A stretch of DNA of 64,000 nucleotides from Porphyra umbilicalis (Eukaryota; Rhodophyta; Bangiophyceae; Bangiales; Bangiaceae). The translations under genes were made by a program, and so were the position numbers. Position 1 is the stretch's first letter, and every line of letters starts with the position of its first letter. Of this stretch, positions 34,129 through 57,136 are shown one piece after another. The notes under the pieces are model-generated. The model saw nothing but the letters and a program-made list of their open reading frames with translations. It was not told the origin of the DNA and made no database searches. Location of the stretch: assembly GCA_002049455.2 (NCBI GenBank), contig KV918998.1, positions 60,268 to 124,267 of the forward strand, given 5' to 3'.

Positions 34129-34320
34129 GGTTGGCGGTTGGGGGGAGCGAGGGGGAAGCGGGAGACTCGGAGGGAGAGGAAACGGGAGAGGAAGGGGGAG
34201 GGGGTGGGTGAGCCAAGAAAGGCGGGCGGCGTGTTGGTGGTGTGTGGTCGTCGGCCGGTGGGGAGTGCGTGTGATGGTGATGACAGACAAGACCGGCACT
34301 GGAGCGCTGCCCAGTGTGCC

Positions 34321-34330
34321 TCATATAGGG
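34321..34330 (-). promoter_or_regulatory. TATA box of the protease homologue
   Basis: The minus strand reads CCCTATATGA about 190 bp upstream of the ATG at 34128. This predicts transcription starting near 34295 and a leader of about 165 nt, which is rich in pyrimidines on the coding strand. Confidence 0.45.
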
Positions 34331-38445: not shown

Positions 38446-39797
38446 CGATGAGTGACGCAAATGCGAGGAAATGAGAATAAAGCACGCAGCGACAGCAGCA
38501 TTCGGAGGCAAGACGGGAGCATGAAGCCCGACAAGAACCGAATCCGTCGCGCACCAAGGGAACCGACCGAAGCGAAGCCGCGTCATCCCAGCACGCACAG
38601 TCGCATACAAGCGGGTGTCGTAACAAGCAGCGTCAGGGAGCGATGTAGAGTGAAGCAGGGCACAGAGGAGCCGCAGTCACGTCACATCGAGCAGCCGACC
38701 GATGCCCATTTTGCAGCATCAGTAGAATAGCGGGCGAGAGACACGCAATGGGATCCAATGCAGCAACGGAACCAGATGAACGATGCACAATGATCATCAA
38801 GCACAAGGACAGAAAAGAGGCAACAAGACCATACCAAACACGGCAGTGGATGTGTCAGAGCTGCACCCAGGCAGAAGGGACTCAGCACTTCGGACGACGG
38901 CCGAAATTTTTTCCGCAGAGCACGGAACAAACAAAAACAAGATCAAGAGGAGCAGGGCATCGGCGAGCACCCCCCACGTTCAATGCGGTGACAATGAAGG
39001 GCACGACGCAAACCACACCAAACCGAAGATGCAAGCCACCACACAACCCCACGCGCAGTAACATGGTCCTATACGTACCATCTCGGAGGGTATTAGGTGA
39101 CTTGCGGGGTCACCACGGGGAAATCGTGCGGAGGGGCGGTCGGGTCGACTCGACTGCAGCCGTAGTCGTGACCGCCGGAGACGACGATCACGACGGCAGA
39201 GTGCTGCCGGTGCAGCAACGTCGGCGCTCTGCGAATCCCGCACCACAATCACGGTCGAAACAATCGGACAATCCCGCAATTAGAACAGAAGGTCAATTGT
39301 GCAGAGAAGCATATACGACCCACCTCCAGTACATACTTACTTCGTGGAATCGGTTAAGAAAACGGGGGACAGCTGTGAGATCAAGTCATAGAGCTGTATT
39401 AGTAGCCCCCTTCGGCAGACATGCTGCTTCGGAAATCGTTTTCATTCCAGGATAATATTTCTCAAGTAACACATGGGATCAGGAGTTGAGCATTGCTGTT
39501 ATCCGAGATGCGATTCAGCTGCACAGACGTGTGCTTCGTGCGTGCGCTCTCTTCTCCCTTCCGTTGCCAACTTGGACAGCACTGGACCTTCTAGGATGCC
39601 AGGCTCTGTGCCGAGCGGTGCGAGACGGACTGACGTCCTCCCGCAGCAGTCGATGCGCGGCGGCCGCTCTGCGCCACTCCTGTGTGGGCTGCTGCAGGCC
39701 CGACTTGCCGCTTGCCCTTCCCCTCTTTCTTTACCCTACCCCTGAATCACCTCCCCCGTCCCGCTTTCCCCCCCCCCCGCCTCCCCCCCTGTCTACC
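38446..39797. other. eL20 upstream region and spacer
   Basis: Contains the unlocated first exon and promoter of the minus-strand eL20 gene and the 5' leader of the plus-strand PB1 gene (a pyrimidine-rich stretch at 39720-39790). ORFs are short and overlapping. Candidate eL20 start codons on the minus strand lie between 38490 and 38640; none can be chosen from sequence alone. Confidence 0.45.
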
Positions 39798-41350
39798 ATG
39801 TCATCCCCGACCGCCCCCCCCCCGGTGCTCGACATCCAAGCAACGATGGACGGCGGTGCGATGCGGCGCCTGCGCACGCCGTCGCCCCTCACGTATGGCG
39901 CCCTTGTCGCTGCGTTGACCAACACATTCGCGAGCACCCTAAATTTCGACGTCTCGTGGATCGACGACGAGGGCGACGCGGTCGCCCTGTCGTCCGACAC
40001 TGATTTGGCAGAGGCCGTCCGCCTCATCAGCGCGTCGGGGGTGCTGTGCTTGGTTGTTGCAGCCGGGCCGCCGACCGCGGCGGCCACAGCGGGGGCGGCG
40101 ACGGCCGCCGTGCCATCGGCGGATGGGCACACGGCGACGCGTGCCAGGGGCGTGGAACTGAGGGAATTAGCCGCTCCCGTCACGGCCGCTGCACCGGTGG
40201 CGGCGGCCGCCCCCGTCACAACGGCTGCTCCCGTGTCGGCCGCTGCCCCCGTGGTGGCTACCGGCCCCGTGGCAGCCACCGCCCCCATGGCGGCCACCGC
40301 CCCCGTGGCAGCCACCGACCCCATGGCGGCCACCCCCCCCATGGCGGCCACCGCCCCCGTGGCGGCCACCGCCCCCGTGGCGGCTACCGCCCCCGTGGCA
40401 GCCACCGCCCCCGTGACGCCGCCGCCGCCGCAGACGCCAAGGCCGCTGATGGCAGCAACCAGAGCGGCGGCAGCAGACCGCCACGCCATCCCCGTCGCCG
40501 CAGCGGCCGTGCGGCGGCCTCGCGACGTGGCCGCGTCGGCACCGCCACCCGTCCGCGCCGCCGCCGTCGACGCTGCCGCGACGCGCCGCACCGCGGCCGC
40601 GGCGGCCGCGGCGGGCGCCACCGCCGCCGACGCTGCCCGCGTGGCGGCAGCGGCCCGCGGCAGTGGTGGTGGCGGCGCCCGCGGCGGCGGGCGCCCGCGC
40701 GCGACGGGTGCGCCCAGCGCCCCGCCCGACGTGGGCGCCCCCCCGGCGACGCACGTCCCGCGCTTTGTGGCCGGCGGCGGCGGCGGCGGTGGTGGAGGGG
40801 GGTGGGGGGGCCCCGTCGCCGCCGGTCCGGACGGCTGGGGCGCGTGGTCGGGGGGCGGCGCGGCGGGCCCCGCCGCCGCCGCTCGCGCGTGGGGGCCCGC
40901 CGGCGCTGCGGTGGTGAGCGGGCGGGGGGGGACCTGCTGGTGGAGCCGCACGTGGCAGAGTGACGGGCGCGGGCACGGGACGGGGCGCCGTTGCGCGCGC
41001 GGGCACGGGCCTCTGACGGCGCCGCCGCCGCCGCCACCGCCATCGCCGCCACCGCCGCCGCCACCGCCGCCGCCACCGCCGCCGCGTGTGCCTCCGAGAG
41101 GCCTCTCGCGGCGCCCGCGCCGGCCCCGTGTGCGGGAGCGTCGCGCACGTGGGCGTGACGGCGACGTTGGTGACGGCTTTTCGGGCACGGGGTGGAGCGC
41201 CGTCGGCTTGTCCGGGATGGGCGGCGGCATGCGCGGCATGCGCGGCGTGGACGGCGTGCGCGGCATCGACCACCTCGGCCGCATGGTGGGCGCGCGCGCG
41301 GGCGGCGTGCGCATCCGCAGCGCCCGTGGAGGGACGGATGGGGACGACTG
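39798..41350 (+). CDS. PB1-domain protein, 5' part; interrupted by the 14.5 kb element
   Basis: From ATG 39798 the first 95 residues form a PB1 domain: LDIQATMDGGAMRRL, LTNTFASTLNFDVSW, then the acidic OPCA motif DDEGDAVALSSDTDLAEAV. No Lys is seen at the basic PB1 site, so it looks like a type I (acidic) PB1. Residues of about 125-210 are a tandem array of 6-residue units (PVAATA, 18 bp each), followed by Ala/Arg/Gly/Pro-rich low complexity. At the 3' end the repeat module begins (GMGGGMRGMRGVDG, AGGVRIRSARGGTDGDD). The frame then enters the mobile element and stops at 41384. The rest of the gene lies at 55808-57136; the two parts are in frame when the element and one CTG are removed. Function unknown; PB1 domains mediate protein-protein assembly. 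Confidence 0.75.
40180..40419 (+). repeat. 18-bp tandem repeat encoding PVAATA
   Basis: About 13 units of GCCACCGCCCCCGTGGCG with substitutions, in frame within the PB1 gene. Confidence 0.8.
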
Positions 41351-41412
41351 CGCTGCGGTGCTTAAGTGGAGTCGGAGCACATAGACCTTTTTCCCGATGC
41401 GGAACACACATT
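41351..41412 (+). repeat. Left terminal inverted repeat of the 14.5 kb element
   Basis: 62 bp, identical to the reverse complement of 55743-55804; outer end CGCTGCGGTGC, inner end CGGAACACACATT. Confidence 0.92.
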
Positions 41413-42764
41413 GTCGTTTTTGCGGCCGTGGCATTTTGACTGGGCATCACGCATTCGTCAGGCATGGCGCCCGACACATTCTCCCATGCGCGACCCATAA
41501 AAGCGCGAACGAGTGATATATGGAGAATGTGTGGTGCTTACATCATCATTATCGCCAATGGGCTGGCGGCATGCAACTTGGGGCGGTCCAATAGGAGCAA
41601 AGAAAAAGACAAAATCATCTACTAGATGAGGCGTGGCGCATGACGTCTGGCTCGTCTCTGATTGTTGTAGCGGTCAGCATTCATGACCTGGGCTGGCAAC
41701 TCGATCAGGCCTGTCTACTGTCGCGAGTGTCGGTCGCTAGCACTCATGTTGTGACCGCGAAGAGCTCGAAGAAGGGCGGCTTCATCAAGCGGAACTAGGG
41801 CAAACTGCGTTCAGAAACCTTCATGGCTGCACCTCGCAATAGGAGTTATACCGCTTTTACTTGCAAGAATCCCCATCAAAGACAGGATACGAAAAAGAGC
41901 TACTGCACATGAATGCCACGAGAGTGGTCCGTGATACGATGAAAGTAGAGTTTTACGGGACGTGGCATCCACTGAGTGGGACATAAAACGTTTCGGAGAA
42001 AAAAGAGTGACAAGTGTTCCGCAGTGGCCCCCACTGCGTTTCTGTCAGATTCCTTCAGTATCGACAATAGACGGGGGCTTCTTAGTGGCTTGGCGGGCTT
42101 TGGGGGGAGGATTGTCACGCTGGTCGCGCCTCGACTGGGCGATCGACTGTTCAAGAGAGCCGCGAATTGTCATATGGGTGGCCACAGCCGCTTTCTCTGT
42201 GGTGACGACGGAGGCGTGACGCGCAGCAGGTGCGCTTCTTGTGGAGACTTGCTTTGGGATGCAGCCTTCCCACCGCATACTACGAGATACAGGACGCGCT
42301 CGACGGTATGCCATCAATCTTCCTCCCGCCTCCCGCCTCCTGCCGTCATCATTCCCCTGCGTTTTTCGTTTGAACCGCCCTGCCTGTTCTGGCGTGCCTG
42401 TCATGACTCTAGACGGGCATGAGCGCATCGCGTCAGCCTGCAATGGACATGCAGCATGCGCGTCAATGGTCGCGGTGATCATTCTCATGTCATTCTACCG
42501 TGCTCCACCCGTCCGGAGTGCATGACCGCGGACGGGGCGCGGTAGGACTAGCCGCTCGTCAGTGTCATCACCATGGACGTGGGGACACTGTTTCGCAGCC
42601 GCGTGGCGGCCGCAGTGGCGGGGAAGGGAGCAGTCGTGGGGGAGGACAGTCGCGGGGGAGGGAGGGGTAGGGGTACATGTTGGAAGAGGTCGCATGACAA
42701 ACCATGTTCAAAGGAAGTCCCGAGTAAAGGAAGAAAAAAACATCCATCTATCAACAATACAAGT
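41413..42764. other. Left subterminal region of the 14.5 kb element
   Basis: About 1.35 kb without a convincing gene. A TATA-like CCATAAAAGC lies near 41505. The minus-strand ORF1 ends at 42765, so this also holds its 3' untranslated region. Confidence 0.5.
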
Positions 42765-44825
42765 CTACGCCGACGTGGGAGGGCTTTCAGGCTCGACCTC
42801 CTTGACGTCGGCAACAACCCAAAGTCGACCACAGTCCCGCACGTGCGTCACCTTCTTGCGCAGTAGCTTGTCCGACCTAAACGAAAAGGAGTACGAAAAC
42901 ACCTGGGAGGGGATCGTCACGTTGTTCAGCACGTTGATGGCAATGCTACTCACGTCCCAAGTGGAAGAGCCGCCGTCCGCATTCATGCCAACCGCACGAG
43001 CCTCCTCCGTCGACGTGTCCTCCGTCCGCGCAGTGCTGGCAGCCCGGGACGGCGCCACCGACGAGCCGATAGTCGTTCTCTGGTCGGCGTCGCCGACCTC
43101 GGCCGTCCCAACGTCCCCCAATACCGTGGTGGTGCCGTCGGGTGCGGCCAGCAACCCGCTCCTTGCCACAGGCGATGCGCCGCGGACCGCAAGCGATCCG
43201 CTCTCGGCGTGTTGGCTGAAAAGCAGTCCGTCTGGCAGCAGCTGAGCAACTCCGCGATTGTCCTTCGTGAGCTTGATGATGGCGACGCGACGCACCCCCT
43301 TGAGCAGCTCAATTGACCGACTCCGCTCCGACACGCCGGGAACAGCCCTGACAAACCTTTTCAGGGCACTTGTCTCGACCGTCGGCTGCACCCTGGACTG
43401 CTGGACGACGAGGCGGTAGGCATACATCCCGGCGGAGCACACCTCCACGTCGTTCTCTTCCCCGCCCGACTGGGCGGTCACGTACGTGTGCAAGGATACC
43501 TTGCCCGCCGCGGACATGTCCAAGAACGACGCAAGAGGGATCTGCGCCCCCCAGCCGCCGCGCGGCCAGGCGGGGCACGGGTCTACCGACGAGATGATGC
43601 AGCCGGGAATGTCCGCCAGGGGGGGAGCAGGTACGTAGGAGGCCGCTGCATCGACGTCGTTGAACGTGGCCACCTTCTTTGCGTGGCCCCGTACACGCTG
43701 GCCAGGTCCTTGGCCGGTCTCGGCCGCCGACGGAGCGCGGGGTGACGCAACGCCTGAAAAAGCAGCGCCTGGAGCAGAGCGCTTGCGATTCCGCCCCGTC
43801 ATTCTGCCAACAGGCAACGAAGCGACGGGCGACTCCACCGGCCAATCTTTCACCGTGGCCAATGTGCGGTTCACCGTCTTGAAGAAGCCGGCAGACAACT
43901 CTCCGACGAGGGTTGCCGATGGGCTGCCGGGCACCCACCGAATGGAGCCCCAGCCAAACACGAGCGTGGCTTTGTCGGTCGCAGGACCGTTGGTGCCGGC
44001 AGTCCCTGGGAGGATGACACATCCCGCGGCCTCCGCCTGCCGGGCGCCCTCCTCGGTGGAAAGGTGTTGGCGTAGCTTGGCCAGCTCCGCAGCGCTTGGC
44101 GACCCGGGCGTCGAAGTGTCGATGTTCCACAGGTCCAAAGACGAGCGCACAACGAGGCGCCGCGACTCCCACTGCGAATCACCTTTCGGGTTCACACCAG
44201 CGTTGATCTCCGCGCACCGGAGGGATGGCGGATGCCCGATGAACTGAAACTCTTGTTTGACCCGGCTGGTCATGTAGAGGCCGCGCTCGCCAACGGAGAG
44301 CTCGTCGCAAAGCCACAGCCACCCGGTCAGAGGGTTATTAAACACCTCCCGTGAGGCGCCATCGATGCACTCGCGGGAGCCTTGAGGGGCCAACCCTGCC
44401 AACCAGGACATCTCCGAAGCAAGGAAAGGGATGACTAGAGCGGGGGTGCACAGGTTCTTGTTCACGACAGGCGGGGAGAGGTAGAAGATGTACCTGATGA
44501 CGCTCCCCAATAGCGCCTTCTCTCGGGCGTCGGTGGCCACCCGCGACACCCCCGACAAAAACCCAGATGATCGCCCACGTGACGGGCGAGGTCTCGGCAG
44601 TCCCGTCGCCGCTGCAGCATGCCCAGGCGAGCCTGCCACAGGCACAGAGGAAGGCGCACGCACAAGAGATACACCGCGTGACGTCAGTGCGGCCGGCTCC
44701 ACGACCGCCAGCACCGACGAAGCGGTTGCAGGGGAGTCGGAAGGCATCGCCGAGGGAGCCACCGTCAAAGACACAGCGGCAGCCGTCGTCGCCTCGTCCG
44801 AGGCGGACGCCACTACTGGCGCCAT
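42765..44825 (-). CDS. Element ORF1: 686-aa protein of unknown function
   Basis: An uninterrupted minus-strand ORF. The ATG at 44825 (MAPVVASASDEATT, context GGAGATGGC) is preferred; the frame stays open to an ATG at 45062, but that 79-residue extension is Pro/His-rich and reads like a leader. Residues of about 1-100 are low complexity. From about 110 on it has folded-protein character: EKALLGSVIRYIFYLSPPVV, FLASEMSWLAGLAPQGSREC, GWLWLCDELSVGERGLYMTS, LVVRSSLDLWNIDTS, TLVFGWGSIRWVPGS, then a basic linker (GRMTGRNRKRSAPG), QIPLASFLDMSAAGKVSLHT, AGMYAYRLVVQQSR, RRVAIIKLTKDNRG, and near the end VLNNVTIPSQVFSYSFSFRS. No family recognised. Its conservation inside an intact transposon suggests a role in transposition, replication or host interaction. 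Confidence 0.75.
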   Translation of the reverse strand: MAPVVASASDEATTAAAVSLTVAPSAMPSDSPATASSVLAVVEPAALTSRGVSLVRAPSSVPVAGSPGHAAAATGLPRPRPSRGRSSGFLSGVSRVATDAREKALLGSVIRYIFYLSPPVVNKNLCTPALVIPFLASEMSWLAGLAPQGSRECIDGASREVFNNPLTGWLWLCDELSVGERGLYMTSRVKQEFQFIGHPPSLRCAEINAGVNPKGDSQWESRRLVVRSSLDLWNIDTSTPGSPSAAELAKLRQHLSTEEGARQAEAAGCVILPGTAGTNGPATDKATLVFGWGSIRWVPGSPSATLVGELSAGFFKTVNRTLATVKDWPVESPVASLPVGRMTGRNRKRSAPGAAFSGVASPRAPSAAETGQGPGQRVRGHAKKVATFNDVDAAASYVPAPPLADIPGCIISSVDPCPAWPRGGWGAQIPLASFLDMSAAGKVSLHTYVTAQSGGEENDVEVCSAGMYAYRLVVQQSRVQPTVETSALKRFVRAVPGVSERSRSIELLKGVRRVAIIKLTKDNRGVAQLLPDGLLFSQHAESGSLAVRGASPVARSGLLAAPDGTTTVLGDVGTAEVGDADQRTTIGSSVAPSRAASTARTEDTSTEEARAVGMNADGGSSTWDVSSIAINVLNNVTIPSQVFSYSFSFRSDKLLRKKVTHVRDCGRLWVVADVKEVEPESPPTSA

Positions 44826-46128
44826 CTCCACTCCGGAACACTCGTGTGCGGTGGCGGTGTGTGCGATGAGGCAGCAAGTGACACACTGGTTGGTGTTGTC
44901 GGTGGGGGGGATGGAGGTGGGGAGAAAAAGCGGTGGACACGTGGGGCCACGAAGGGGACGGAGTGATGGGGACGGAGTGGAGATAGGAGGGTGGGGGAAC
45001 CGTGGTGTGACCGGGACCGCGGTGTGATGGGGGTCAAGGTGATGGAAAGACGGTCGGTGCATGAAACGGGGGCATCAGAGGCCGAAGAAATACGTCTCCG
45101 CCGAAGCAAGGCGGCACCGCGGAGGAGCATGGCTACAACGGGTGTTCGGAGAAGGAGGACCGACAGAGAGAAGGTCGACCCACTGACCAGCAGAGAAGCC
45201 GAAGCCGACGGATCGAGGCAGCGACTGCCGTCGTGGCACAGTGCCACGGCCACGGCCAACAACAAGTATGCGGACTTTGTGCGACAGCTCCCAGGCGTGA
45301 TTTCATATCTCGTAGGTCAGCGTTCTGAAGTCCCAGTTTCGAGGTGGTCATGTCGCCAAGAACCAACGAGAAACGGACATGTATAATTTAATACGATTAT
45401 TGAACGTCAAGTGCAGACCAAGGCGTCGGAGTTAGCCTGGCAAAACTGGACCAGCGCTACGTGGGGAGCCAACGTTTGAGATCTGTACAAGCCCCTACCT
45501 CCCCTCAGGTGACCACCCGCCTCTACCGAGGTGGCCACAATCGGCCCTCCACGAACGTCTTCCCCGACAGGCGCCACGCCACTTAGCCGAATCGCTCGCC
45601 CTCGGACTCCCTGGGATTGGATTCTGGTCGGCAGGCCGCCCTCATCATTCTTCCTCAGCCCCCATTTTCCACAGCCCCCCACCCCGACTGCTGTCCCTTG
45701 TCACCACGCGTAGATCAATCCGAGCCGGCGGTACAGGCGCCACCAAGACAAGTTCAGTTGCCCCGCCGATCGCCATCTGCCGCAGCCGTCCGTACGGCCG
45801 GCCTCAGTCAGCTCACGTGGAAGAACGTCGCCTTCTGGACACGTCCGCCGATGACGTTAGTCCGGAAAGATATGGGCGCGCACGTTCCGCTCCGTCAATG
45901 AATCTGGTTGGCTAGCGGGCTGGATGGATCTGTCTGACAGGATGTGATCTGTGGTCTTGACTAATCTCGGATGCACGGAAGCATGCTTGTACATAGAGGT
46001 AGGTAAAATGACTCGACAACCACCTGGCCACGCCATCACCCCCCATCTCGCCGCGCCACCAAGACGCCGAACCCGAGCCCCCATGCCCTCCCCCCCCACC
46101 CTTGTCTCTAGAGGACGCGAACGACACC
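44826..46128. other. Spacer between element ORF1 and ORF2
   Basis: Holds the pyrimidine-rich leader of ORF1 (44830-45060) and about 1 kb with no convincing gene. Short plus-strand ORFs are antisense to the leader. Confidence 0.45.
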
Positions 46129-46611
46129 TCACAGAGGAGAATAGTGGATGTAGCACACATGATGAGAACAATGACTGCACCCACCGTACGACTTCTTGGG
46201 ATTCTGCTTCACGCGGGACTTGTAAGAAGGCGCATGGTGGCGCTCATGCTTTTTCGGACGTCCGTCCGAGCCGGCACCGACGAGCGTATCAGTACGCTCG
46301 ACAGTGGCCGCCTTCCACAACGCCACCGGCGCGGCTGCGCCCGTTGCCGCTGTGCCCGTTGCTGCACTTTCACCGGCACCTGGAGCTGCCGTCATTGGCG
46401 TGGTGACAACGTCTTCGTCATCGACGAGGTCGACGTCCCAACTTCCGTGGGCATCAGGTGGCGATGGTGGGTCGTCCACGACGTATCCGCTCCGCAGGCG
46501 GATGCCCACGATCATCGTGCCGTCCACGAACTTGACGACCTTGTTTAGATGCCGAACAGGGCGGGCCCGTCGAGGCTTTTGGATGTTGGAGATAGCAATG
46601 GCAGGGATCAT
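46129..46611 (-). CDS. Element ORF2: 160-aa basic protein
   Basis: From ATG 46611 the protein reads MIPAIAISNIQKPRRARPVR, HLNKVVKFVDGTMIVGIRLR, SGYVVDDPPSPPDAHGSWDV, an acidic patch (DLVDDEDVV), an Ala/Gly-rich linker, a basic segment (DGRPKKHERHH, SYKSRVKQNPKKS) and a Cys/His end (GGCSHCSHHVCYIH) that could bind a metal ion. A TATA box lies about 175 bp upstream (46783-46790). A 50-codon ORF from ATG 46760 ends with TGA overlapping the start codon (ATGA at 46611-46608); since the TATA box predicts transcription near 46755, that upstream ORF may or may not be in the mRNA. Function unknown. Confidence 0.5.
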   Translation of the reverse strand: MIPAIAISNIQKPRRARPVRHLNKVVKFVDGTMIVGIRLRSGYVVDDPPSPPDAHGSWDVDLVDDEDVVTTPMTAAPGAGESAATGTAATGAAAPVALWKAATVERTDTLVGAGSDGRPKKHERHHAPSYKSRVKQNPKKSYGGCSHCSHHVCYIHYSPL

Positions 46612-46782
46612 GGCGCCGAAGAATACGCGGAAGCGTTGGGTGATAGCGGTGAGGCCGGGGGAAATGGAGGGAGGTAGGGACGGGGGACGAAGAAGAAGAC
46701 GAGCGGGGATGGGCGGCGATAGAGCCTTGGCTGTGTGATGGTGGACGAAGAATGATGCATTGATCTCTCTCACAGGAGCTCG

Positions 46783-46790
46783 TTTTATAG
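46783..46790 (-). promoter_or_regulatory. TATA box before element ORF2
   Basis: The minus strand reads CCTCTATAAAACGAG, a textbook TATAAAA, with an expected start about 30 bp downstream, near 46755. Confidence 0.6.
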
Positions 46791-48312
46791 AGGACAATAG
46801 GGTCGAAACAAAAGGCGCGCGGGCGAGAGGGGCGCGCGTGGTTCCTCGCTGGAACTGGGCCGTGGGGTACCGTGGCACTCGCCATTGAGGTTGCAGGCAG
46901 ATTCAAGCACAGCGGCCGCGGCCGTGGCACCGACTAGCCGCGGCAGCCGCAGCCAGGTGTCGCGCATATGCGGTCTGCCGGCTCGAAGATGACACAGCGA
47001 GCGTCACGCCTCCGTGCAGCTGCCACGGCTCGTGCCCCGAACCGCCTGCAAGCAACAAGGAACACCGAGGCCCCTGCAGGGGCCATTCTGCTGGCCGCTG
47101 GCCCGCAGCGAACGTCTTGCCTGTGTGCAGCTGCCACAGCTCGTGTCCCGAACCGCCTTCAAGCGACAGGGAACACCGAGCAGCACAGCAGTGCCAACTG
47201 GCAGTTGGGCTGCTGCTTCTGCATGGACGCTCCGCGGCTGCAATGGCTACGTCGCACGAGAGGGCCACTGCAACTGCAAGGACCACCCCCTATCGAGGCC
47301 GCGGATGCTGCGGTTGGAGGGCCATCGTGGGGCAATAGCCTTCACCTGTCACTAGACATTGGATTTTTTACCACAGCCAAGAAAGTAGACAGCGCCTTCA
47401 TTGGAGTTTTGACCACAAGAATGAAACGTCGACAGGGCCTGGCGCTCCAACGCCAGCTCGCCGTGCCCACGACCGCGGTCGCGGCCTCCGCGCGGCCGCG
47501 ACCGTGGCGCCGTCGCGGCGGACTGTCCTGCTGACATGCGCTGGAGTTCGGGTCAGGCGGCACTGATGAACTTTCGTAGCTGCGATCCGCTGCAGCTTAA
47601 GCTTCCAGCTGCAGCGGCCGCGAAGCCGCGGCCATTTACAACACGTCTCGTTCGTGCTATCCCCCATCCGCTTTTGGTGAGACTTGCCGCGGCCTCTCAG
47701 CAGCGACTGCAGCGGCTGTGCCACCTGGGTACTGCAGCTGGCACGCCGTGGTTCTTGTTCCAGGAGCATGGTCAGCATAGTTCCGTGGTTGTGTGCCGCT
47801 TTTGTGGGGTTGCGGCCGCCTTCTGTAGCTGGGCTGGCCGATCAACGAGCGGTCGTGCTGCCTTGCAATTATGCGCGAAGACTGAGCGCAGCTACGTCAG
47901 GCGGCACTCAGCTGCCACTGCCTGCACCTGAGCGCCACCTGACACTACCGTGCCCATTCCTGCGTTGAACACGAAGTGCGACGAGAGAGCCGCTACGTCA
48001 CGCGGTTTTGAAGTGCCACTGCCTGCCGTGGCACTGAGACGCAGCTGCGGCCGCTCCTGGCGCGGCGCGCCGCACAAACCGCAGCAGACGCGTTGTCCGG
48101 CTGCGCCGTAACGTTTTTTGTCCAGCACCCGACCCGACCGAAACACAATAAATACCCGCTTGGCGGCATCAGGTGCCTCGATTGATTGCACAGCACTCTC
48201 GAACAATACAACCGATCAACGCTCCGCGGTGCGGCCCCCTCCTTCGCCGCGGCCGCGCTCCTCCTCCACAACAACCTCCCCTCCAACTGCGGCCTCGACT
48301 CTTTCACCAAGG
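46791..48312. other. Spacer between divergent element ORFs; 111-bp direct repeat
   Basis: About 1.5 kb between ORF2 (minus) and ORF3 (plus). A segment with GTGCAGCTGCCACGGCTCGT at 47014 recurs at 47125 with changes (about 65 bp similar, offset 111 bp). Many CAGCTGCCAC / GTGGCAGCTG-like motifs recur to 48060. A TATA-like AATAAATACC at 48144-48153 lies about 160 bp before ORF3. Confidence 0.5.
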
Positions 48313-49098
48313 ATGAGTTCATCCAACAAAAGCCGCTGCTACAGCATGTGCACGACGGACTGTGCGGGCAACCAGGCCGCCAGCAACCAGGCAGTCAACT
48401 CTCTCGACGTCATGCCGATCGCCGCACGTCACCAGCTCGCCTCCCCCGACAACCGTGAGGCACCTGCCGCGGGTCTGACGGCCAAGGCCGATGACGAAGG
48501 GGCCGGGGCGGATGACCGCAAAGCTGCCGCCGCCGAAGTTGTCGTGGTCGACGACGAAGGGTCCGGGGCGGATGACCACAAAGCTGCCGCTGCCGAAGTC
48601 ATCATTGTCGAAGAAGAAGGAGCCGGACCGAATGGCCCCAAAGCTGCTGCCGCCAAAGTTGTTGTTGTCGACGACGAAGGGTCCGGGGCGGATGACCACG
48701 AAGCTGCCGCAGCCGACGATGTCAATGTCGATGAGGCGGCGGCCGCTGCGGCTTCGGCGCTCACACGTGCTGCCGTACGCAGCGCAGAGGTGGTAGCAAA
48801 CCCATCGCCCGCCGTGGACGTGGGCGCCGTGCCTCGGCGGTACAACAAGCGTAGCAAGCATTCCCGCCGCTACCACCTGCCGCGATTCGTGCCCAAGGCG
48901 CCGCGAATGATGGTGGTGGCGCACCGAGCGCCCCGCATTGTTGCGGATCCGCCGACGCCACCGCCTAGGATGGCGGGCTCAGCGGCGGGCTCAACGTCCA
49001 CAGATGGCGAAGAAGAAAGCGACGACGACGAGACGAACGGCGAAGGAACCGCGGACGATAACGTGCAGGACACGGAGGACGAGGACAATGCGCTGTAG
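48313..49098 (+). CDS. Element ORF3: 261-aa protein with acidic 20-residue tandem repeats
   Basis: From ATG 48313 (MSSSNKSRCYSMCTTDC) the protein has a Ser/Cys start, then four tandem 20-residue units encoded by 60-bp repeats (48493-48732) with the pattern DEG.GADD.KAAAAEVVVVD, then an Ala-rich helix. A basic region follows (PRRYNKRSKHSRRYHLPRF) and the tail is strongly acidic (DGEEESDDDETNGEG). The frame is open upstream to 48118, but the ATG at 48313 is the first after the TATA-like box in which composition becomes coding-like. The alternating acidic and basic blocks suggest a nucleic-acid or chromatin-associated protein. No family recognised. Confidence 0.6.
   Translation: MSSSNKSRCYSMCTTDCAGNQAASNQAVNSLDVMPIAARHQLASPDNREAPAAGLTAKADDEGAGADDRKAAAAEVVVVDDEGSGADDHKAAAAEVIIVEEEGAGPNGPKAAAAKVVVVDDEGSGADDHEAAAADDVNVDEAAAAAASALTRAAVRSAEVVANPSPAVDVGAVPRRYNKRSKHSRRYHLPRFVPKAPRMMVVAHRAPRIVADPPTPPPRMAGSAAGSTSTDGEEESDDDETNGEGTADDNVQDTEDEDNAL
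48493..48732 (+). repeat. Four 60-bp in-frame tandem repeats
   Basis: Units start at 48493, 48553, 48613 and 48673. Units 1, 2 and 4 are closest; unit 3 is the most diverged (GPNGP instead of GADDH). Confidence 0.85.
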
Positions 49099-50851
49099 CG
49101 GCCATGACATGGGGTGCGGCCGCCCGTCTGAGTAGCATCAGTTGAGGAGAGAGCTGCGGCGGTCGATGCAACGTCGATGCAGTCATCCAGCTTGCACATA
49201 GAGGGCGGACCGTGTGCGTAGAAAGGAGACGGGCATTTGAGTTAGGCTCCAAAATTGCGCGTGTCGCGTCATTGAGAACCTCCTTGCGCCCACTCGCTCT
49301 CGCCCTGCCGTCGCCCTCTCGCCGCCCTCGTGTTGCAGCAACTCCGCGGGCGCCCATCCACACCAGTTGTGTCAAAGAAGGTGTACGGTCATAAAACAAC
49401 ATCGATGAAGCGTCGGCAACCAGCCGGCCAGTCGGCGATATCCACCGTGACTGGACCGCCTAGTTCACACACGTACAGATCCTCAGTGCCTCACGGTCGT
49501 CCATCAATGAAGCGTCGTCAGCCTGACGTGTCAGCTCCGGACGGGCACTTCGTGAGCACGACCACCGCCGCACTGTAGGAGGGCCACCCCTCACTTCCAA
49601 GAGTATTTTTTCCAAAAGGAGATCTCATGGGGATCGGTGCTGCGGGTTGCGGGGAGAAGCGTGTACGGCGGAGCAAGAAAAAAGCAACATAAAAAAATCA
49701 GGTGCCAGTACTGACAAAGGAAGGGGTAAAGCGCCACCGAAGGATGCAAGCTCGAGACATGCACCCGGCCTACCGGGCGAAACTGAAGAAGCCCACACGC
49801 ACCAGTGACATGCCTTTGGCCACCGAGTTAAAGGAGGGAAAACGCGGGAAATTGATGAAGACGTACCAAGGAGCGCAGAGCTTCTTTCATCCACTCTTTG
49901 ACCACAGCCGTCGATCACAGACGTCGTTGCATTCGGACGCGGTGAATCGATGGTTGGCTCTTCGGGTTTCCCGTCACGAGCTCTTGTGGAAGCCTGTGAA
50001 GCGGCGCCATGTCGACGACGACGGCGAGAGGGGCACGAGAAGATCAGTACGAGAGGACGTGTGCTGTTCGACTGTGTGGCAACAGCTCGAGAGTTGCCAC
50101 GTTGCAGCGCAACGGGTCACGATTGCCGCGTTTTGGGATGCGAGTGTCTGCCGAAAACAGCGTGGTAGCACCCCGTACTTTTGTACCGTTTGGGCATGTT
50201 CTCCACTGGTTTTGTATCTTCCCAGCTATTTTCATTGCATCATTTTCCCGTTTTCGTGTGCAGTTATATTTTTCATACTTAATCGAGGATCACAAGTACA
50301 TGTAGACATGACGGGCAAAGACCCGCATCAGGTCTCATCAACAGTGGTTCGCAGTTTTTTGGACCGCTTAGCCCCTGATATGGGAGTGCCGCTGGGCTGG
50401 ATAATGACCGGCCCAGCCGTCCGACGTCGGCCCGTGTCAGCTCGTGTCATCCAAGACCGAGCAGGCCTTAACGCTTGCGTGGTCAGTCCTGCGTGACCGC
50501 CACGGTCTGTTGCCGCTTGCGTTGCCTCATGCCTCTTGCTCTCCCCTTTCCCGCTTTTGTGCCTCGCTGAGCTGCCTGATTCAAGACGTGGGCCCAGTTC
50601 CTTCGTGCTATTCTTGAATGCCGTGCCCGGGCTGGGAACGCTCGCTCTCGTCCCGGTTGGTGGACCCTACGGTCGTCGGCCGGCGCCCACCGTCGTGGCG
50701 TGACGCGACTACTTTTGTGGCTTGACAACGTTCGGTGGCGCTGGTTGTGGGTGCTACGGTCCCAGGCCGGTGTCCGCTGCGAAGGCGACCTACAAGGGCA
50801 TCCTCTGGTATCACGTTCGAAGTCGACGCGCAACCGACGCCCTACGCGCGC
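49099..50851. other. Spacer before the DDE-like ORF, possible small ORFs
   Basis: A 57-codon frame at 49405-49578 contains MKRRQP twice. A 62-codon frame at 50309-50496 (MTGKDPHQVSSTVVRSFLDR...) follows a TATA-like TTATATTTTTCAT near 50265; either could be a small gene or an upstream exon of ORF4. Nothing else is evident. Confidence 0.35.
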
Positions 50852-53800
50852 ATGGACGGGGATGGTGCTGGTTCTGCGGCAAGCAGTGCTGCGGCAGGCG
50901 CAAACTCCGACGTTCAGGTGGAAGCGGCGGGCGTCGCCAATCCTGGTGCGCCAAGTCGCCGCTCCTACCACCGGCGGGTGATTGCGCCTCTTTCTAACGA
51001 GGAGGGGAAGCGGACGTGGGTTGTGATAGGGCCGATCACAAAGCCTGTCGACCCCGAGACGTTTCGGTTCGATGCTCATGTGGTTGCACACCCGCGGTGG
51101 ACTGGCCGAGAGGTCTTCGCTCGTGTGGTTTCGGCTCTCGTGTCCCGTGAGCGATACTCCTCCGTAGCTGCTGCGCACGAGTCATTGCAAATCCTTGCTC
51201 GCTCGGCGCGGCTTGAGGACGACGACGGGCTTGAGGAACCGTCATGGTTTGGCCTCGTGGGGCTGGGGCGGGACTTAACGCCGACGGAGTGCAACCGCGT
51301 GGTGGCGCGTGGAAGGCTGGCTGTCTCGAAGAACAAAGGTCGGCGGGAGAAAGGGGACGTCACAATCACCGTCATTGGAGACGGAAGCCACCATCCCTGG
51401 TCGCGGTACGGCGTTGAGCTGGACCACAAAAGGGTGGCCTCGCACACTGCCACCGTGTGCGTCAACTCGGTCCGATTTGGGCAGTTGCCTGCCAAGCGAA
51501 AGAGGCGAGCGGTAGGCGTCACCAACGCCCGCACGATACGGGACGTGCGGCGTGAGACTGAGTTCACCACACCGCCGACCTCCATCGATGGAGACTCGGA
51601 CTCGGACAACGACAACTACGAGCTCAAGAAACGGCGGCGACGCCACCGACGGGACGCACCATGGGGGCAGAAGGCCCCAAGGATGCTGCCGACACCAAAG
51701 GAGGTTCGAGACGTGGTCCGTGGTGCCGTAGATGCTCCCGGCGTTACCCCCCACTCTTTGCTCACCCTAGATCCCAACGGTGGCGTTCGGATTTGGCGCT
51801 ACGTTGTCGGGACAGCATCTACTGGGACTAGGTGGTACACTCTGGCCAACGGTGTACGCAAGCGGCTGGCCGCGCCCTATCACAGGCGCCAGCTCCGACG
51901 AGTCGCGACATTCCAGCGAAGTACCGACGGCCGCGGCGCTGAACAGAAGAGCGCAGCGAGCGCTGGTGGTCACGGGCCGCCGGTTGGTCATCAGTCCAGC
52001 CTGGCTGCTGCGGTCGACTTTGCCGCCACGGGTCGCGCCGACGCGGCAGATGAGCTGCGGTCGCGATTTCATATTGCCCGTAGCACGTACCTGGAGGACC
52101 CACTCCAGGCGGGCTCTGCGCGAAGTGATTTTGGCGACAGCGGGCGGGAGCTGGTCCTCGCGGTAGAGTTTGACGCCGTCTTCGCGCTACAGCGCGCCTT
52201 CCGAGAGGACGCGAAGCCGGCACTGCTAAAGGACATCGAGCAGTCGCCCGCCGCCCTGACCTTGGCCGGCGACGGTGGGCCGGTGCGACGCACGTCCATG
52301 ACAATCTTCACCCTCACTGCCTCCTCCTCGCTGTTGCGCAAAGGGCGCACAGCGCTTATCCCAATATTAGTCATTTTGGGTGGAGAGCAGGCCGTCCACT
52401 CGGCCGTGGGCGAGCGGCTGCGGGAGCGGGTCAAGGCGGCCCTTCTCGCCGATTACTCGGTGCCTGTTCGTCGTCCGCGTGACGTGACCATGGCCACTGG
52501 AACCGCACGCTCTGCTTCAGCCGGTGTCGAGCGCTTCTCCAACATCGCTCCGACCATGCCTGACACACATCCCGCGCTCGCTACCGTGCTCGCTGCGCCG
52601 GCCACGGACCTTCCGTGGTCTACCGCGGCGTTGCGCTTCTTGTTTCTGCTTCGGCTGTGCGGAGACTTTGCGATGATTGCGCACTTCCTCACCCTCACTG
52701 GGTGCAGCGACGGGAGCCGGTGCCCTTACTCGTGGCCCTGTCTGCCGGCATCGTACCTGTCGGTCGCCCTGTTGACGGCTGTGTCTGGTCGAAGTAGAGA
52801 TGGCAGCCTTCTCTCGGCGCACTGGGAGCTCGTGGTCTGGGGGCTTGCAAGGTGGTGTACGCTGCGCGGTGGTCGCTGGAAGACTATCGGTGGGCGCCTT
52901 GTCTGGTCGTGCGCGGCCTGCAAGAGGAATCTTGTTGGCTACTCCACGTCAGGCAAAACGGTGGCGTGCACAGCCCCGCTGTGCCCGATGCAAGGAAAGG
53001 CGAAGGCTGAGCTGCTACAGCGCCATGCGTACACCCCACTGTCGGACGTGTTTCGACTGCTTCGCCGCCGCCTCGGCGGACCGCGTGGCTACCCTCTGGT
53101 CGGAGACATCCCCTTCCTCGTCCAGGCACCGGTGATGCACTGCTGTGGGAAGCTAGGCAAATGTGTCATTTACTTCATGCTGGCGTTGCTCCCCGAGACC
53201 CACCAAGCTCAGGCTCGCCGCAAGATCTACGCCCTGCTGGGCCGGTCCAACACTGGCGCCATGTATCTGCGCGAATTTGGACGCCTCGGCGCCATGGTCA
53301 TTGCGCTACCAGGCGTTCTTGGTGCCAATATCTCGCTTGATACAGGCGCCGTGTTGATGCTGCGCCTTTGCCAGCTTCTCACGGCGTCGTGGCGCCGGGC
53401 CCTCGTCGCTAAGTCAACAGTGGAGCGGGAACGTGCCGCCGCAGCTTTGCAGGTTTCTGCCGCGCTGCTGGCCCCGCTGTACGCCGCTCTCAAGCCGCAC
53501 GATCCGGTAACGAAGAAGGCTGGCGTTCTCAACCTCTACTTGCACACGGCGATGGCGCATGTGCGTCAGACTCTTGGCAATGCGTCACCCCTGCTGCGGT
53601 TCATTTCGGACGACCACATTGAAGGGACAATTGCCGATATGAACCGCTACTTCCGCCTTCGCACCAACAATGTCTCTCGTGGGCAATCGGTGGTCAACAA
53701 GCAGGCGCTGATCCCCCCAGAGTTCAAGGGCGAAAAGGAGGTCAAGACGGCTGAGAAGATGCTCTTCACGAAGGACATTGCTGTCTGCCCATGTGTCACC

Positions 53801-55201
53801 AAGATTGGGCTGCCAACGGTGGCCAGCTTTGAAGCTGTTGTGCGTTTTGCCTGTTCTGAGTCGGAGCTGTCCGTCACCGTCGCCGAGTCAGCGGCTGTGA
53901 CATCTCCGAAACAGATGGCGCTGGTGGCCAGCGCGAAAGCGGCGGTCACGGCGGCCACTGAGGCTGCCGCAGTGGCGTCGGATGCCAAAGACGTCGCCGT
54001 GGCGGCCGAGAAGAACAGCACGGCACCAACTTCAGTGGATGAGATGGGCACCGTGGAGCCCGGAGCGAATGTTGCGGATGCTCTCTCTGCCGAGCGCGCC
54101 TTTGTCGCGGCCAATGAGGCCACCAAGGCGGCCGCCAAGGTGGCCGAGGAGGCGCTGGTCGTGGTCTTTCGGTTTGCGCCTTTGCTGATCAAGCTGCACG
54201 CCGGCGCTGATGAGGTGGCGCCCAACCTCCAGCCAATGAACGTGCGCGGCATGGACGGAGAACTACAAGAGAAGTTGGAGGCAACGCAGCGCCGCATTCA
54301 CATGTGTCTTTGCGGCGCGTTGACGGGCGGTGCACCCGCTGCCAGCGTCATTGCAAGAACTGCCATGGAGGCCACCGCCGCCGCGAGAGCCGCTGCGACT
54401 GCCAACAATTCCTCTCGATCACCTGCTGACGCCGATGAGACCGTCAATGCCGGCTTGAATCACACGGAGCACGTCGGTTGTCCCAGGGACTCAACAACGG
54501 GGACTGCCACGAGAACTGCGGGTGGCGCCGAGGAAGCCATGCTTGGCGGCGCTGCGGCGGTGGAAGCCAATTGGTATGGCTCGGCACACGATGAGGAAGC
54601 GGGAGACGGTCACTGGTACGATGATGACGAGTTTCCTGGGGGGGGCAGTCGGATGGAGGCCGGCTCTGCAAGCCGAGGGGACCAAGGCGAGGACATCGTG
54701 CTCCCCGACGACGAGCATCCGGATTTGGACACGCCCGTCCATGGCGACCGCAGCTACCAGCTGGACGACCTCGAGCTGACGGACAGCGACAATGAAGGCG
54801 ACGAGGGTGCCGCTGCGGCGGTGGCCGCGACGAATACCGGCGTGGGCAGCGCGGAGCATAGCACTGGCAACTTCTTGCTGCAGTTGGCCATAGAGGACGC
54901 GAATTTGGCCCTGGCCCTGCCAGCCACGGCCGTAGTGGACGTCGTCCTGGGCGGCACTGTACACACTCCGGGCTCCCTCGAGGCATCCACCATGCGTTGT
55001 CGGCTGGAGGAGGAACTCACCATGATGGAGCTCTTCATTACGCGGATGCGTACACCCGACTTCGAGTCGTGGACAAGAAAGGATGGCGTACTGCTGCGGG
55101 ATGTTGCTCTTGCGGCCGAGCGCTTGCGCCACACTCTCCTCACGAAGATGGTTGCGTTGGACGTGGGCGATAGTGAGGAAGACGTATGCGTGACAGAGTG
55201 A
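50852..55201 (+). CDS. Element ORF4: 1449-aa DDE-transposase-like protein
   Basis: Uninterrupted from ATG 50852 to TGA 55199. Approximate residues: 1-70 low complexity; 80-170 folded; 250-280 basic (KKRRRRHRRD); core of about 470-940. Landmarks are LAGDGGPVRR (Asp 474), RLCGDFAMIAHFLTL then CSDGSRCPYSWPC (Asp 605), WSCAACKRN plus CTAPLC about residue 686-710 (possible zinc ribbon), YPLVGDIPFLVQAPVMHCCG, LYLHTAMAHVRQTL, and SDDHIEGTIADMNRYFR (Glu 924). The order D, then 'GD[FY]..(11-16)..CPY..C', then Glu in a helix with 'NR', is that of CACTA/CMC and RAG1/Transib-type transposases; assignment of the three acids is my inference. After about 1000 come Ala-rich helices and an acidic tail (DDEHPDLDTP, ELTDSDNEGDEG). 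It is the probable transposase of the element. Confidence 0.7.
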   Translation: MDGDGAGSAASSAAAGANSDVQVEAAGVANPGAPSRRSYHRRVIAPLSNEEGKRTWVVIGPITKPVDPETFRFDAHVVAHPRWTGREVFARVVSALVSRERYSSVAAAHESLQILARSARLEDDDGLEEPSWFGLVGLGRDLTPTECNRVVARGRLAVSKNKGRREKGDVTITVIGDGSHHPWSRYGVELDHKRVASHTATVCVNSVRFGQLPAKRKRRAVGVTNARTIRDVRRETEFTTPPTSIDGDSDSDNDNYELKKRRRRHRRDAPWGQKAPRMLPTPKEVRDVVRGAVDAPGVTPHSLLTLDPNGGVRIWRYVVGTASTGTRWYTLANGVRKRLAAPYHRRQLRRVATFQRSTDGRGAEQKSAASAGGHGPPVGHQSSLAAAVDFAATGRADAADELRSRFHIARSTYLEDPLQAGSARSDFGDSGRELVLAVEFDAVFALQRAFREDAKPALLKDIEQSPAALTLAGDGGPVRRTSMTIFTLTASSSLLRKGRTALIPILVILGGEQAVHSAVGERLRERVKAALLADYSVPVRRPRDVTMATGTARSASAGVERFSNIAPTMPDTHPALATVLAAPATDLPWSTAALRFLFLLRLCGDFAMIAHFLTLTGCSDGSRCPYSWPCLPASYLSVALLTAVSGRSRDGSLLSAHWELVVWGLARWCTLRGGRWKTIGGRLVWSCAACKRNLVGYSTSGKTVACTAPLCPMQGKAKAELLQRHAYTPLSDVFRLLRRRLGGPRGYPLVGDIPFLVQAPVMHCCGKLGKCVIYFMLALLPETHQAQARRKIYALLGRSNTGAMYLREFGRLGAMVIALPGVLGANISLDTGAVLMLRLCQLLTASWRRALVAKSTVERERAAAALQVSAALLAPLYAALKPHDPVTKKAGVLNLYLHTAMAHVRQTLGNASPLLRFISDDHIEGTIADMNRYFRLRTNNVSRGQSVVNKQALIPPEFKGEKEVKTAEKMLFTKDIAVCPCVTKIGLPTVASFEAVVRFACSESELSVTVAESAAVTSPKQMALVASAKAAVTAATEAAAVASDAKDVAVAAEKNSTAPTSVDEMGTVEPGANVADALSAERAFVAANEATKAAAKVAEEALVVVFRFAPLLIKLHAGADEVAPNLQPMNVRGMDGELQEKLEATQRRIHMCLCGALTGGAPAASVIARTAMEATAAARAAATANNSSRSPADADETVNAGLNHTEHVGCPRDSTTGTATRTAGGAEEAMLGGAAAVEANWYGSAHDEEAGDGHWYDDDEFPGGGSRMEAGSASRGDQGEDIVLPDDEHPDLDTPVHGDRSYQLDDLELTDSDNEGDEGAAAAVAATNTGVGSAEHSTGNFLLQLAIEDANLALALPATAVVDVVLGGTVHTPGSLEASTMRCRLEEELTMMELFITRMRTPDFESWTRKDGVLLRDVALAAERLRHTLLTKMVALDVGDSEEDVCVTE

Positions 55202-55742
55202 CTTTTTTTGGGGCGTTGACGTCGACGTGGGGTGGAACGTGCGGCGGTAGGGCTTGCGGGTGCGACGATTGGGATCAAGGAAACTGTAGTGTTGACATGT
55301 GCCGCATATTAGCCTGTCTGTTGGGACACAGTAGGGGTGTTTTTTTGGTTGGCGGCGCGTCCATGGGGGGGGTGAGGATGCTGCTGTGGCTTCCACGCAG
55401 TGCTCGTGTACAGCACGTGGGTCACTCGTCCTCTCTGCTTACTGCTGGGACATTTTTCCACAGGGTGCGCAGTACGCCACCAAATGTACTGCAGGAGGCC
55501 ACAGAAGACACGGCATCCGGACGCATTCATTTTTAACCGCATTTGCGCCTATTACTCATTCGGGTGTGAAGCGCTGATGGGCTCATCATTGGCATCTGAA
55601 CGAAGCGTGTCTGTGCTTGCGACAATGAGGCGTATCATGTGGTGTAAAGAAATCAAATCAATGGTGAGCCCAAGTTTTCAGAATAGTCCAATGCGACGAA
55701 AACCTGCACTTATGACTACTCCCTGAGGGGCCCGCATCACCA
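55202..55742. other. Right subterminal region of the 14.5 kb element
   Basis: About 540 bp without a gene, between the ORF4 stop and the right inverted repeat. Confidence 0.6.
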
Positions 55743-55804
55743 AATGTGTGTTCCGCATCGGGAAAAAGGTCTATGTGCTCCGACTCCACTTAAGCACCGC
55801 AGCG
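55743..55804 (-). repeat. Right terminal inverted repeat of the 14.5 kb element
   Basis: 62 bp, exact reverse complement of 41351-41412; outer end GCACCGCAGCG followed by the duplicated CTG. Confidence 0.92.
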
Positions 55805-55807
55805 CTG

Positions 55808-57136
55808 GGAGGACTGGTTGGACAGGATGGACGACGTGCCTGGTATGGACGCGTTGAGGGACTTGCCCGAGTGGATTGACAATGTCGTGGATGGTGCCAC
55901 GGGTGGCATCGTCGCCACGATGGGCGACGGCGGCGGCTTGCCCGGCATGGTCGGCGGCATGCGTGGCATGCGCGGCGTGGACGGCATACGTGGCATCGAC
56001 CGCCTCGGCCGCACGGTGGGCGCGCGCGCGGGCGGCGTGCGCATCCGCAGCGCCCGTGGAGGGACGAATGGGGACGGATGGGAGGACTGGTCGGACGGGA
56101 TGGACGACGTGCCTGGCATGGACGCGTTGAGGGACTTGCCCGACTGGATTGACAATGTCGTGGATGGTGCCACGGGTGGCATCGACACCATGACAGGCGA
56201 CGGCGGCCGCCTGGCGGCCGTGCTCGACGCCCTCGATAGTAGCGGCAACGGCGCCGGCGCCGGCGCCGGCGACAGCTTGCCCCTCGACGGCGTCTCCCCC
56301 CCCGTCATGGACGCCCTCCGCGCCCTGCCGGCGGCCGTCACGCCCGCCACCCGCAACGTGGCGGCGGGCGCAATGCGCGCGGCGGCGGGCGGCGGCACTC
56401 GCCTCCCCACCCTCCTCACCGCCGCCACCGAGGTGATCCTCCCGACCGTCTGCTCGTTTGCGGTGCAGTCGGTCGGGGCGCCGACCGCCCTTGCCGGCGG
56501 AGCGTCGCCATCGACGGGCGGTGCGGCGCCGTCGGACGGCGCCATCGCCGCGCTCGTCGCGTCGCTCGGCGCGCAGTTGGGCCCGCTTCTGGGCGAGGGG
56601 CCGGCGGAGGGCGTTGCCATGGCGGCGGGCATTGGCGTGCGGGACCCGGCGGTGCTCGCCGTCCTCCAGATGCTGCGGAGGGAGGGCGTTGCGCGGGGGG
56701 GGGGGCGGATGACAATGCGGCAGGCGACGGGTTGTCGCCGTTGGCGCCGTCGCCGATGCCGTCGGCGCCGTTGCCACGACCGCTGTCGCCGCCGCCGCCA
56801 CGGCCGCCGCCGACCGCGCCCCTGCTCGTTGTCCCGCCGCCTCCATTGCAGGCCGGCGCGGCGGGCCCGCCCGTGGCGAGCCTACAACGCGCCCTCACCG
56901 CCGTCGGCCTAATGGCGGCCGGGGACGTGGATGCTCCCGGGTGTGCCGGCCAGTATGGGCCGGCGACAGCCGCCGCCGTCGCGCGCCTGCAGCGGAATTT
57001 TGAGTTGGACGTGCCCGTGTTGGGGGTCTATGACGACCTAACGGCCGCGTCCATGCGCTCCCTCCTCGACGCGCCGGAGCCAGTGGTGGCGGCGGCAGGC
57101 TCAGCCTTTGGGGAGGGGGTCGACGCCACGCCGTAG
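55808..57136 (+). CDS. PB1 gene, 3' part: tandem modules and peptidoglycan-binding-1 fold
   Basis: Continues the reading frame left at 41350. It opens with the rest of module 1 (EDWLDRMDDVPGMDALRDLP, EWIDNVVDGATGG), a second module (GMVGGMRGMRGVDGIRGIDR, VRIRSARGGTNGDGWEDW) and a repeat of MDDVPGMDALRDLP; the period is about 270 bp. An Ala/Gly-rich helical region follows (PPVMDALRALPAAVTPAT; AIAALVASLGAQLGPLLGE). At a run of eleven G (56695-56705) the frame must shift (one base missing or two extra); then a Pro-rich linker leads to VASLQRALTAVGLMAAGD, GQYGPATAAAVARLQRNFEL and YDDLTAASMRSLL, a peptidoglycan-binding-1 type three-helix fold, ending at 57136. The joined protein would be about 960 residues. 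PB1 with this C-terminal fold is not an arrangement I know. Confidence 0.65.

Follow-up and report, generated by a model that had tools for sequence, protein, structure and literature searches.

A large DNA transposon lies within a host gene of the red alga Porphyra umbilicalis, in a stretch of 64,000 nucleotides (assembly GCA_002049455.2, contig KV918998.1, positions 60,268 to 124,267 of the forward strand) that is here called the window and has a guanine plus cytosine (GC) content of 63.6%. The element occupies window positions 41351-55804, is 14,454 bp long with 61% GC, starts with CGCTGCGGTGCTTAAG, and ends in the complement of that start. Its terminal inverted repeats (TIRs) are 62 bp long, run at 41351-41412 (plus strand, beginning CGCTGCGGTGCTTAAG) and 55743-55804 (minus strand), and are identical at 62 of 62 positions. 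The triplet CTG stands on both sides, at 41348-41350 and 55805-55807 (no strand), as the target-site duplication (TSD). An inverted-repeat search of the window returns two arms of 63 nucleotides, 41350-41412 and 55743-55805, that are 100% complementary; since the outermost base of each arm is part of the duplicated CTG, the TIR is taken as 62 bp and the element as 41351-55804. At the window site, a 1-bp TSD and TIRs that begin with GCGC would be a formally equal description, but a 3-bp duplication of the form CNG is preferred because the extra C is missing on the right side in related copies on contigs C424 and C18.

The interrupted gene is an open reading frame (ORF) on the plus strand, in two parts. 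The 5' part (39486-41350) carries a PB1 domain (profile match, E 3.2e-09), and the 3' part lies at 55808-56912. When the element and one CTG are removed, the two join in a single frame of 990 codons whose sole stop is terminal. An intact adjacent module of the host DNA allows the site to be compared with one that lacks the element: 41198-41346 matches 55928-56076 at 92%, and the second half of the broken module, 55806-55956, matches 56079-56229 at 89%, with the intact downstream module reading ATG at the position of the target CTG. A first-pass annotation, made from the letters of this DNA alone, had described a complete DNA transposon in a host gene, with mismatch-free 62-bp inverted repeats, CTG on both flanks, a host frame restored once the element and one CTG are taken out, an adjacent module acting as an internal "empty site," and a CGCTG end near but outside the CACTA rule. 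All of this stands, and both main genes of the element are open. An 18-bp tandem array at 40135-40472, which codes for a repeat rich in Ala, Thr, Pro, and Val, also lies inside the interrupted ORF.

The first-pass annotation counted four long intact ORFs in the element, and two of these are supported as genes by homologues in the same arrangement elsewhere in the genome. One, on the plus strand at 50735-55201, encodes a putative DDE transposase of 1488 amino acids in one open frame; the other, on the minus strand at 42765-45062, encodes an accessory protein of 765 amino acids. The remaining ORFs have no support as genes, with no protein homologue in the loci compared and no Pfam match: 249 amino acids at 46129-46878 (minus), 326 amino acids at 48118-49098 (plus, with a 60-bp tandem repeat at 48489-48731), and 264 amino acids at 49702-50496 (plus). 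These two main genes are the ones that recur when ORF content is compared between copies, as the first-pass annotation had proposed. The middle 5.3 kb, searched in a way that passes over very common words, has no other match in the assembly save 98 bp (81%) on contig C133, which also bears a transposase match, and the complete element is present once. Subterminal motif arrays were sought in this element (contig C238 in the numbering used here) and in its relative on C293, with nothing convincing: two 8-mers occur three times each in the former, and GC-rich 8-10-mers occur three to five times in the latter.

The accessory protein has nine matches in the genome, its own included, and an alignment of seven relatives contains 33 invariant columns, all within residues 161-386. 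No Pfam or PDB match was found for this family, nor any match to Myb/SANT. Transposase and accessory matches lie 4-8 kb apart in divergent orientation on six contigs (C238, C293, C41, C30, C295, and C272), which means that six of the nine contigs with an accessory match have a divergent transposase partner. C18 and C477 have an accessory match without a transposase match, and on C20 the nearest transposase match is 27 kb away. The divergent orientation and the company of the transposase suggest that the accessory protein is a transposition cofactor. En/Spm and Harbinger elements also encode a second protein, which is alike in position but not in sequence.

The search for further copies was made with a 131-base query from the left end against the whole assembly (83.8 Mb, 665 contigs). 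It returned 29 end-like matches, two of them the window's own ends, and the regions around 26 of the other 27 were examined, the one at the edge of C427 being excluded. Sixteen copies are readable at both ends, including the window element and full-size elements on C293, C30, and C41. A perfect 3-bp direct repeat flanks 12 of the 16, and every one is a CNG triplet (CGG four times, CTG three, CCG three, CAG two). The imperfect pairs are CAG/GAG on C424, CGG/CCG on C7, and CCG/ACG in both C18a and C18b. Counted by distinct site, the figure is 11 of 14, as C68a and C68b are one duplicated insertion and C18a and C18b share the same flanks. The C68 case is an inverted segmental duplication, in which a short copy and its flanks (58955-60137) recur about 13 kb away in the opposite orientation (72370-73552). 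Among eight ends read singly, the flank is CNG in seven and ACG in one (C18c). A random pair of 3-mers would match in 2.0% of cases, and CNG accounts for 10.1% of all trinucleotides of the sequences sampled. With 12 of 16 related copies carrying perfect CNG TSDs against 2% expected per site, chance is ruled out as the source of the element's structure. The first-pass annotation's proposal that a genome search with the element end would find more copies with flanking 3-bp repeats is borne out, and the counts demonstrate, at the level of the assembled sequence, that the lineage duplicates a CNG triplet upon insertion.

The three full-size relatives, bounded by inverted-repeat searches, carry the same two divergent genes as the window element. 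They lie on C293 at 62298-79181 (16,884 bp, TIR match 47/49, TSD CCG), on C30 at 90550-107932 (17,383 bp, TSD CTG), and on C41 at 62605-78972 (16,368 bp, TSD CGG); the TIRs of the last two are matched in 32- and 33-bp stretches at 97%. Together with the CTG of the window, the TSDs of the four full-size elements are thus CTG, CCG, CTG, and CGG. All four share the start CGC[A/T]G, CTTAA at positions 11-15, and ends of the form CGC..GCG. The transposase match on C293 has one in-frame TAG and the accessory match on C41 one TAA, whereas both genes of the window element are free of such stops.

Ten copies are short (1.1-2.6 kb) and internally deleted but keep both ends. In nine of the ten, the two 62-bp ends of a copy agree at 48-59 positions; in C27 they agree at 36, where an indel is probably responsible. 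Compared to the window element, they retain the 5' 132 bp (41351-41482, plus strand, 76-83% identity) together with the whole or portions of the 3' 939 bp (54866-55804, plus strand; the last ~112 transposase codons and the 3' end), with an overall identity of 67-83%. Because the window element has ends identical at 62 of 62 positions and a unique middle of 5.3 kb, it looks like a complete, young, single-copy member of the family, and the short copies look like a sister subfamily. Copies of 8.1 kb and 17.5 kb on C18 hold other ORFs between their ends: a Dam-type DNA methylase (L023:4711-6075, minus), a DDE_3/HTH transposase (L024:4253-5773, plus), and a PHD-like ORF (L025:1953-3584, minus). These are not taken for cargo, as the outer flanks of the copies are identical; they are likely nested insertions within multiplied copies of one old insertion.

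The transposase matches 45 stretches at no fewer than 30 genomic places, counting its own, the place count being a lower bound from 31 of 905 candidates scored. Twelve relatives, all from this one genome, were aligned over the core. The candidate first catalytic Asp, D513 (codon 52271-52273, this and the following on the plus strand), is present in all six rows that extend to it, with the other six of the 12 stopping short. The candidate second catalytic Asp, D644 (52664-52666), stands in a D-x11-G-x6-C context in 12/12, and a C(2)C motif follows as C726-x2-C729 (52910-52921), with C726 in 12/12 and C729 in 11/12. The candidate third conserved His, H802 (53138-53140), the H(4)H motif H937-x4-H942 (53543-53560), and the candidate catalytic Glu, E963 (53621-53623), are all present in 12/12, and C663, C669, C745, C750, D959, and D960 are also invariant. 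From this pattern we infer that the 1488-residue protein is an RNase H-fold DDE transposase, with D513, D644, and E963 as its catalytic residues and the C(2)C and three His as a zinc site, in which H802 would be the equivalent of the published third His. Stand-alone frames of 243-302 amino acids elsewhere in the genome resemble the transposase (54-57% identity) only within its residues 765-1037 and lack the two Asp. They lie on C8, C113, C48, C100, C21, C55 (39504), and C287, with an internal stop in C48, C100, and C287, and could be remnants, repressor-like partial transposases, or domesticated genes.

The transposase has nothing above chance in Pfam, NCBIfam, or PDB profiles, and in Pfam scans neither the transposase and accessory families nor six other ORFs of the element give a match above the cut-off. 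Sub-threshold Pfam matches (Ufm1 at 0.078, an RZ-type zinc finger at 0.039-0.22, a primase zinc ribbon at 0.067, and others) were rejected as chance. As a control, the same scan recognizes the genome's EnSpm protein L059 by Transposase_21 (2.9e-09) and its Plavaka proteins L056 and L058 by PF18759. No family member scanned matches Transposase_21 (tnp2), PF18759 (Plavaka), or PF18758 (Kyakuja-Dileera-Zisupton, KDZ). Whole-genome profile scans at E<=0.001 list 28 KDZ, 123 Plavaka, and 136 tnp2 matches, none of which, compared by eye, falls on the matched places of this transposase. No relatives of the element were found in phage, viral, and prokaryote collections. The open literature, among the matches listed, holds no description of it, which is weak evidence as Repbase was outside the scope; a lead from PMC12595863 proved false.

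A published group provides the nearest frame of comparison. In PMC12730594, a paper of 2025, the EnSpm-Mirage-Chapaev-Transib-Plavaka-RAG1 group is described as carrying a C(2)C and an H(3-4)H motif after the second D and before the last E, conserving two C and three H, and making TSDs of 2-5 bp, with CA..TG ends "in most cases," so that such ends are not strictly required; the same text gives PlavakaB a TSD of 2-3 bp, Plavaka ends of CATCA or TGT, and Zisupton a TSD of 8 bp. The window's transposase family has C(2)C, H(3-4)H, and the two C and three H in that order, and its 3-bp TSD falls within 2-5 bp. With EnSpm/CACTA it shares a 3-bp TSD, TIRs, and a large transposase whose C(2)C and H(3-4)H lie past the second D and before E. 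It differs in its ends, which are CGC..GCG and not CAC..GTG, in its CNG target, and in having no Transposase_21 match. EnSpm/CACTA elements also carry a second gene and give rise to derivatives with internal deletions, as the window's family does. RAG1 has its conserved positions at D600, D708, C727, C730, H795, H937, H942, and E962, and Transib has a GC-rich target, CGNCG. Measured against these, the family is alike in the order D, D, 2C, H, H-x4-H, E, in near-equal spacing from C(2)C on, and in a GC-rich target, but the Transib/RAG1 duplication is 5 bp and not 3 bp, and the C(2)C lies farther from the second D here. Plavaka elements likewise have a short TSD, and the D-x11-G-x6-C past the second D can be seen by eye in L056 and L058, but their CATCA or TGT ends differ and no loci are shared among the 123 matches. 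KDZ elements, another eukaryotic DNA transposon group co-resident in the genome, differ by the 8-bp TSD of Zisupton and share no loci among their 28 matches.

Taken together, the matching ends, the CNG duplication, the rejoining host frame, three sisters of the same plan, and ten short copies, all read from the assembly, describe the element as probably a full-length, recently inserted cut-and-paste transposon with a DDE transposase of the CACTA/EnSpm-Transib-RAG1 type. The transposase likely works like those of CACTA/Transib; membership of that group is unproven. The rarity of the residue pattern speaks for the assignment. When the conserved columns are permuted as a string, D..C(2)C..H..H(3-4)H followed after 17-22 positions by E turns up once in 100,000 trials, and D-x11-G-x6-C, a pattern picked after it was seen, in 0.14%. 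Several observations weigh against it. The permutations ignore the clustering of conserved columns, the 12 sequences are those of a single genome, and the H-to-E distance allowed was taken from RAG1 spacing. The genome's EnSpm L059 has, by eye, the G but not the C of D-x11-G-x6-C. C(2)C alone arises in 11% of permutations; it sits 82 residues past D644, an unusual spacing, has another invariant pair, C745/C750, after it, and may be an unrelated zinc ribbon. The ends are CGC..GCG and not the usual CA..TG. No Pfam cut-off is reached by the transposase (the best match, at chance level, is Ufm1 at E 0.078), PDB profile searches return unrelated proteins at best (E 0.06) and neither RAG1 nor Transib, and hhalign gives 0.4-0.5% probability against one EnSpm protein of the same genome, with shallow transposase profiles (effective number of sequences, Neff, 2.3-2.6). 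A single-sequence structure model of the core reaches a mean predicted local distance difference test (pLDDT) of only 39.3.

These points lend some weight to a separate DDE superfamily, still cut-and-paste, with no special kinship to CACTA/Transib, in which C(2)C/H(4)H would be convergent zinc chemistry. No profile ties the transposase to any family, the ends and CNG target are unlike those of published relatives, and the extra cysteines C663, C669, C745, and C750 are present in 12/12. However, the ordered D-D-2C-3H-E of 12 relatives is rare by permutation and the genome's Plavaka L056 and L058 share D-x11-G-x6-C, and a separate superfamily is judged unlikely, at about one chance in a few. Far less probable is a NuwaI-like element of the PIF/Harbinger type (PHIS). 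NuwaI has two ORFs and 3-bp CWG TSDs (PMC4482050), the sole comparable target rule found in the open literature among the matches listed. Seven of the 12 perfect TSDs here read CCG or CGG and not CWG, the ends are CGC and not GGG, the scanned transposases have no PHIS-type DDE match, and the accessory family has no Myb/SANT domain such as the second NuwaI protein has. An assembly artefact or chance inverted duplication would fit the presence of the full element as a single copy, and the first-pass annotation had named an assembly join, or a lack of other copies, as what would overturn its reading. Against this stand independent sister copies that have separate flanks and TSDs, the exact rejoining of the host frame, and the recurrence of the gene pair on five other contigs, which leave an artefact with next to no probability. 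The best reading remains a lineage of CACTA/Transib type that has diverged deeply and may hold the rank of a superfamily. The fuller claim, of a new superfamily-rank branch of CACTA/Transib/RAG1 that reads and duplicates CNG, has its own accessory protein, and is found so far in one red-algal genome, is tentative and falls somewhat short of an even chance.

If the CACTA/Transib-type reading is right, the transposase and the 765-residue accessory protein would bind the TIRs and excise the element, which would then be joined at a CNG site, to the two strands at points three bases apart, and repair would double the triplet. The short copies would be mobilized in trans. Excision from a gene would leave the 3-bp duplication as an in-frame scar of one codon. 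The first-pass annotation had called the element the window's best candidate for an undescribed system. Its mechanism appears ordinary, given the TIRs, the 3-bp TSD, the large DDE-like protein with an accessory gene, and the ten internally deleted copies; the lineage appears new, as no profile cut-off is reached in the libraries used and the ends and CNG target differ from those of the published relatives compared.

Other features of the sequence are recorded here in their own right. In the window, a single open frame of 729 amino acids at 33191-35380 (minus) has a trypsin domain (E 2.6e-18), and another of 671 amino acids at 58558-60573 (plus) has an NAD(P)-binding/amine-oxidase-like domain. 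Ten of the assembly's 11 phycobilisome-family matches are on contig C665 (185,000 bp), evidently plastid. For two adjoining C665 proteins, the best PDB matches include R- and B-phycoerythrin chains, and the top PDB match of the beta chain is labelled "Bacterial fluorescent protein beta." This set of proteins indicates a red alga as host.

The family adds to the red algae a large DNA transposon lineage that profile-based annotation would miss. If its RAG1/Transib-like core is real, it would widen the known range of the transposase group ancestral to V(D)J recombination. The CNG rule predicts the target of every new copy. CNG is a symmetrical triplet and the classic context of non-CG methylation, so methylated or hemimethylated CNG could be what is recognized. 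Three-base scars, if they are indeed left on excision, would make insertions in genes unusually forgiving. Since the window element looks intact and young, it is a candidate for use as an insertional tool where genetic tools are scarce.

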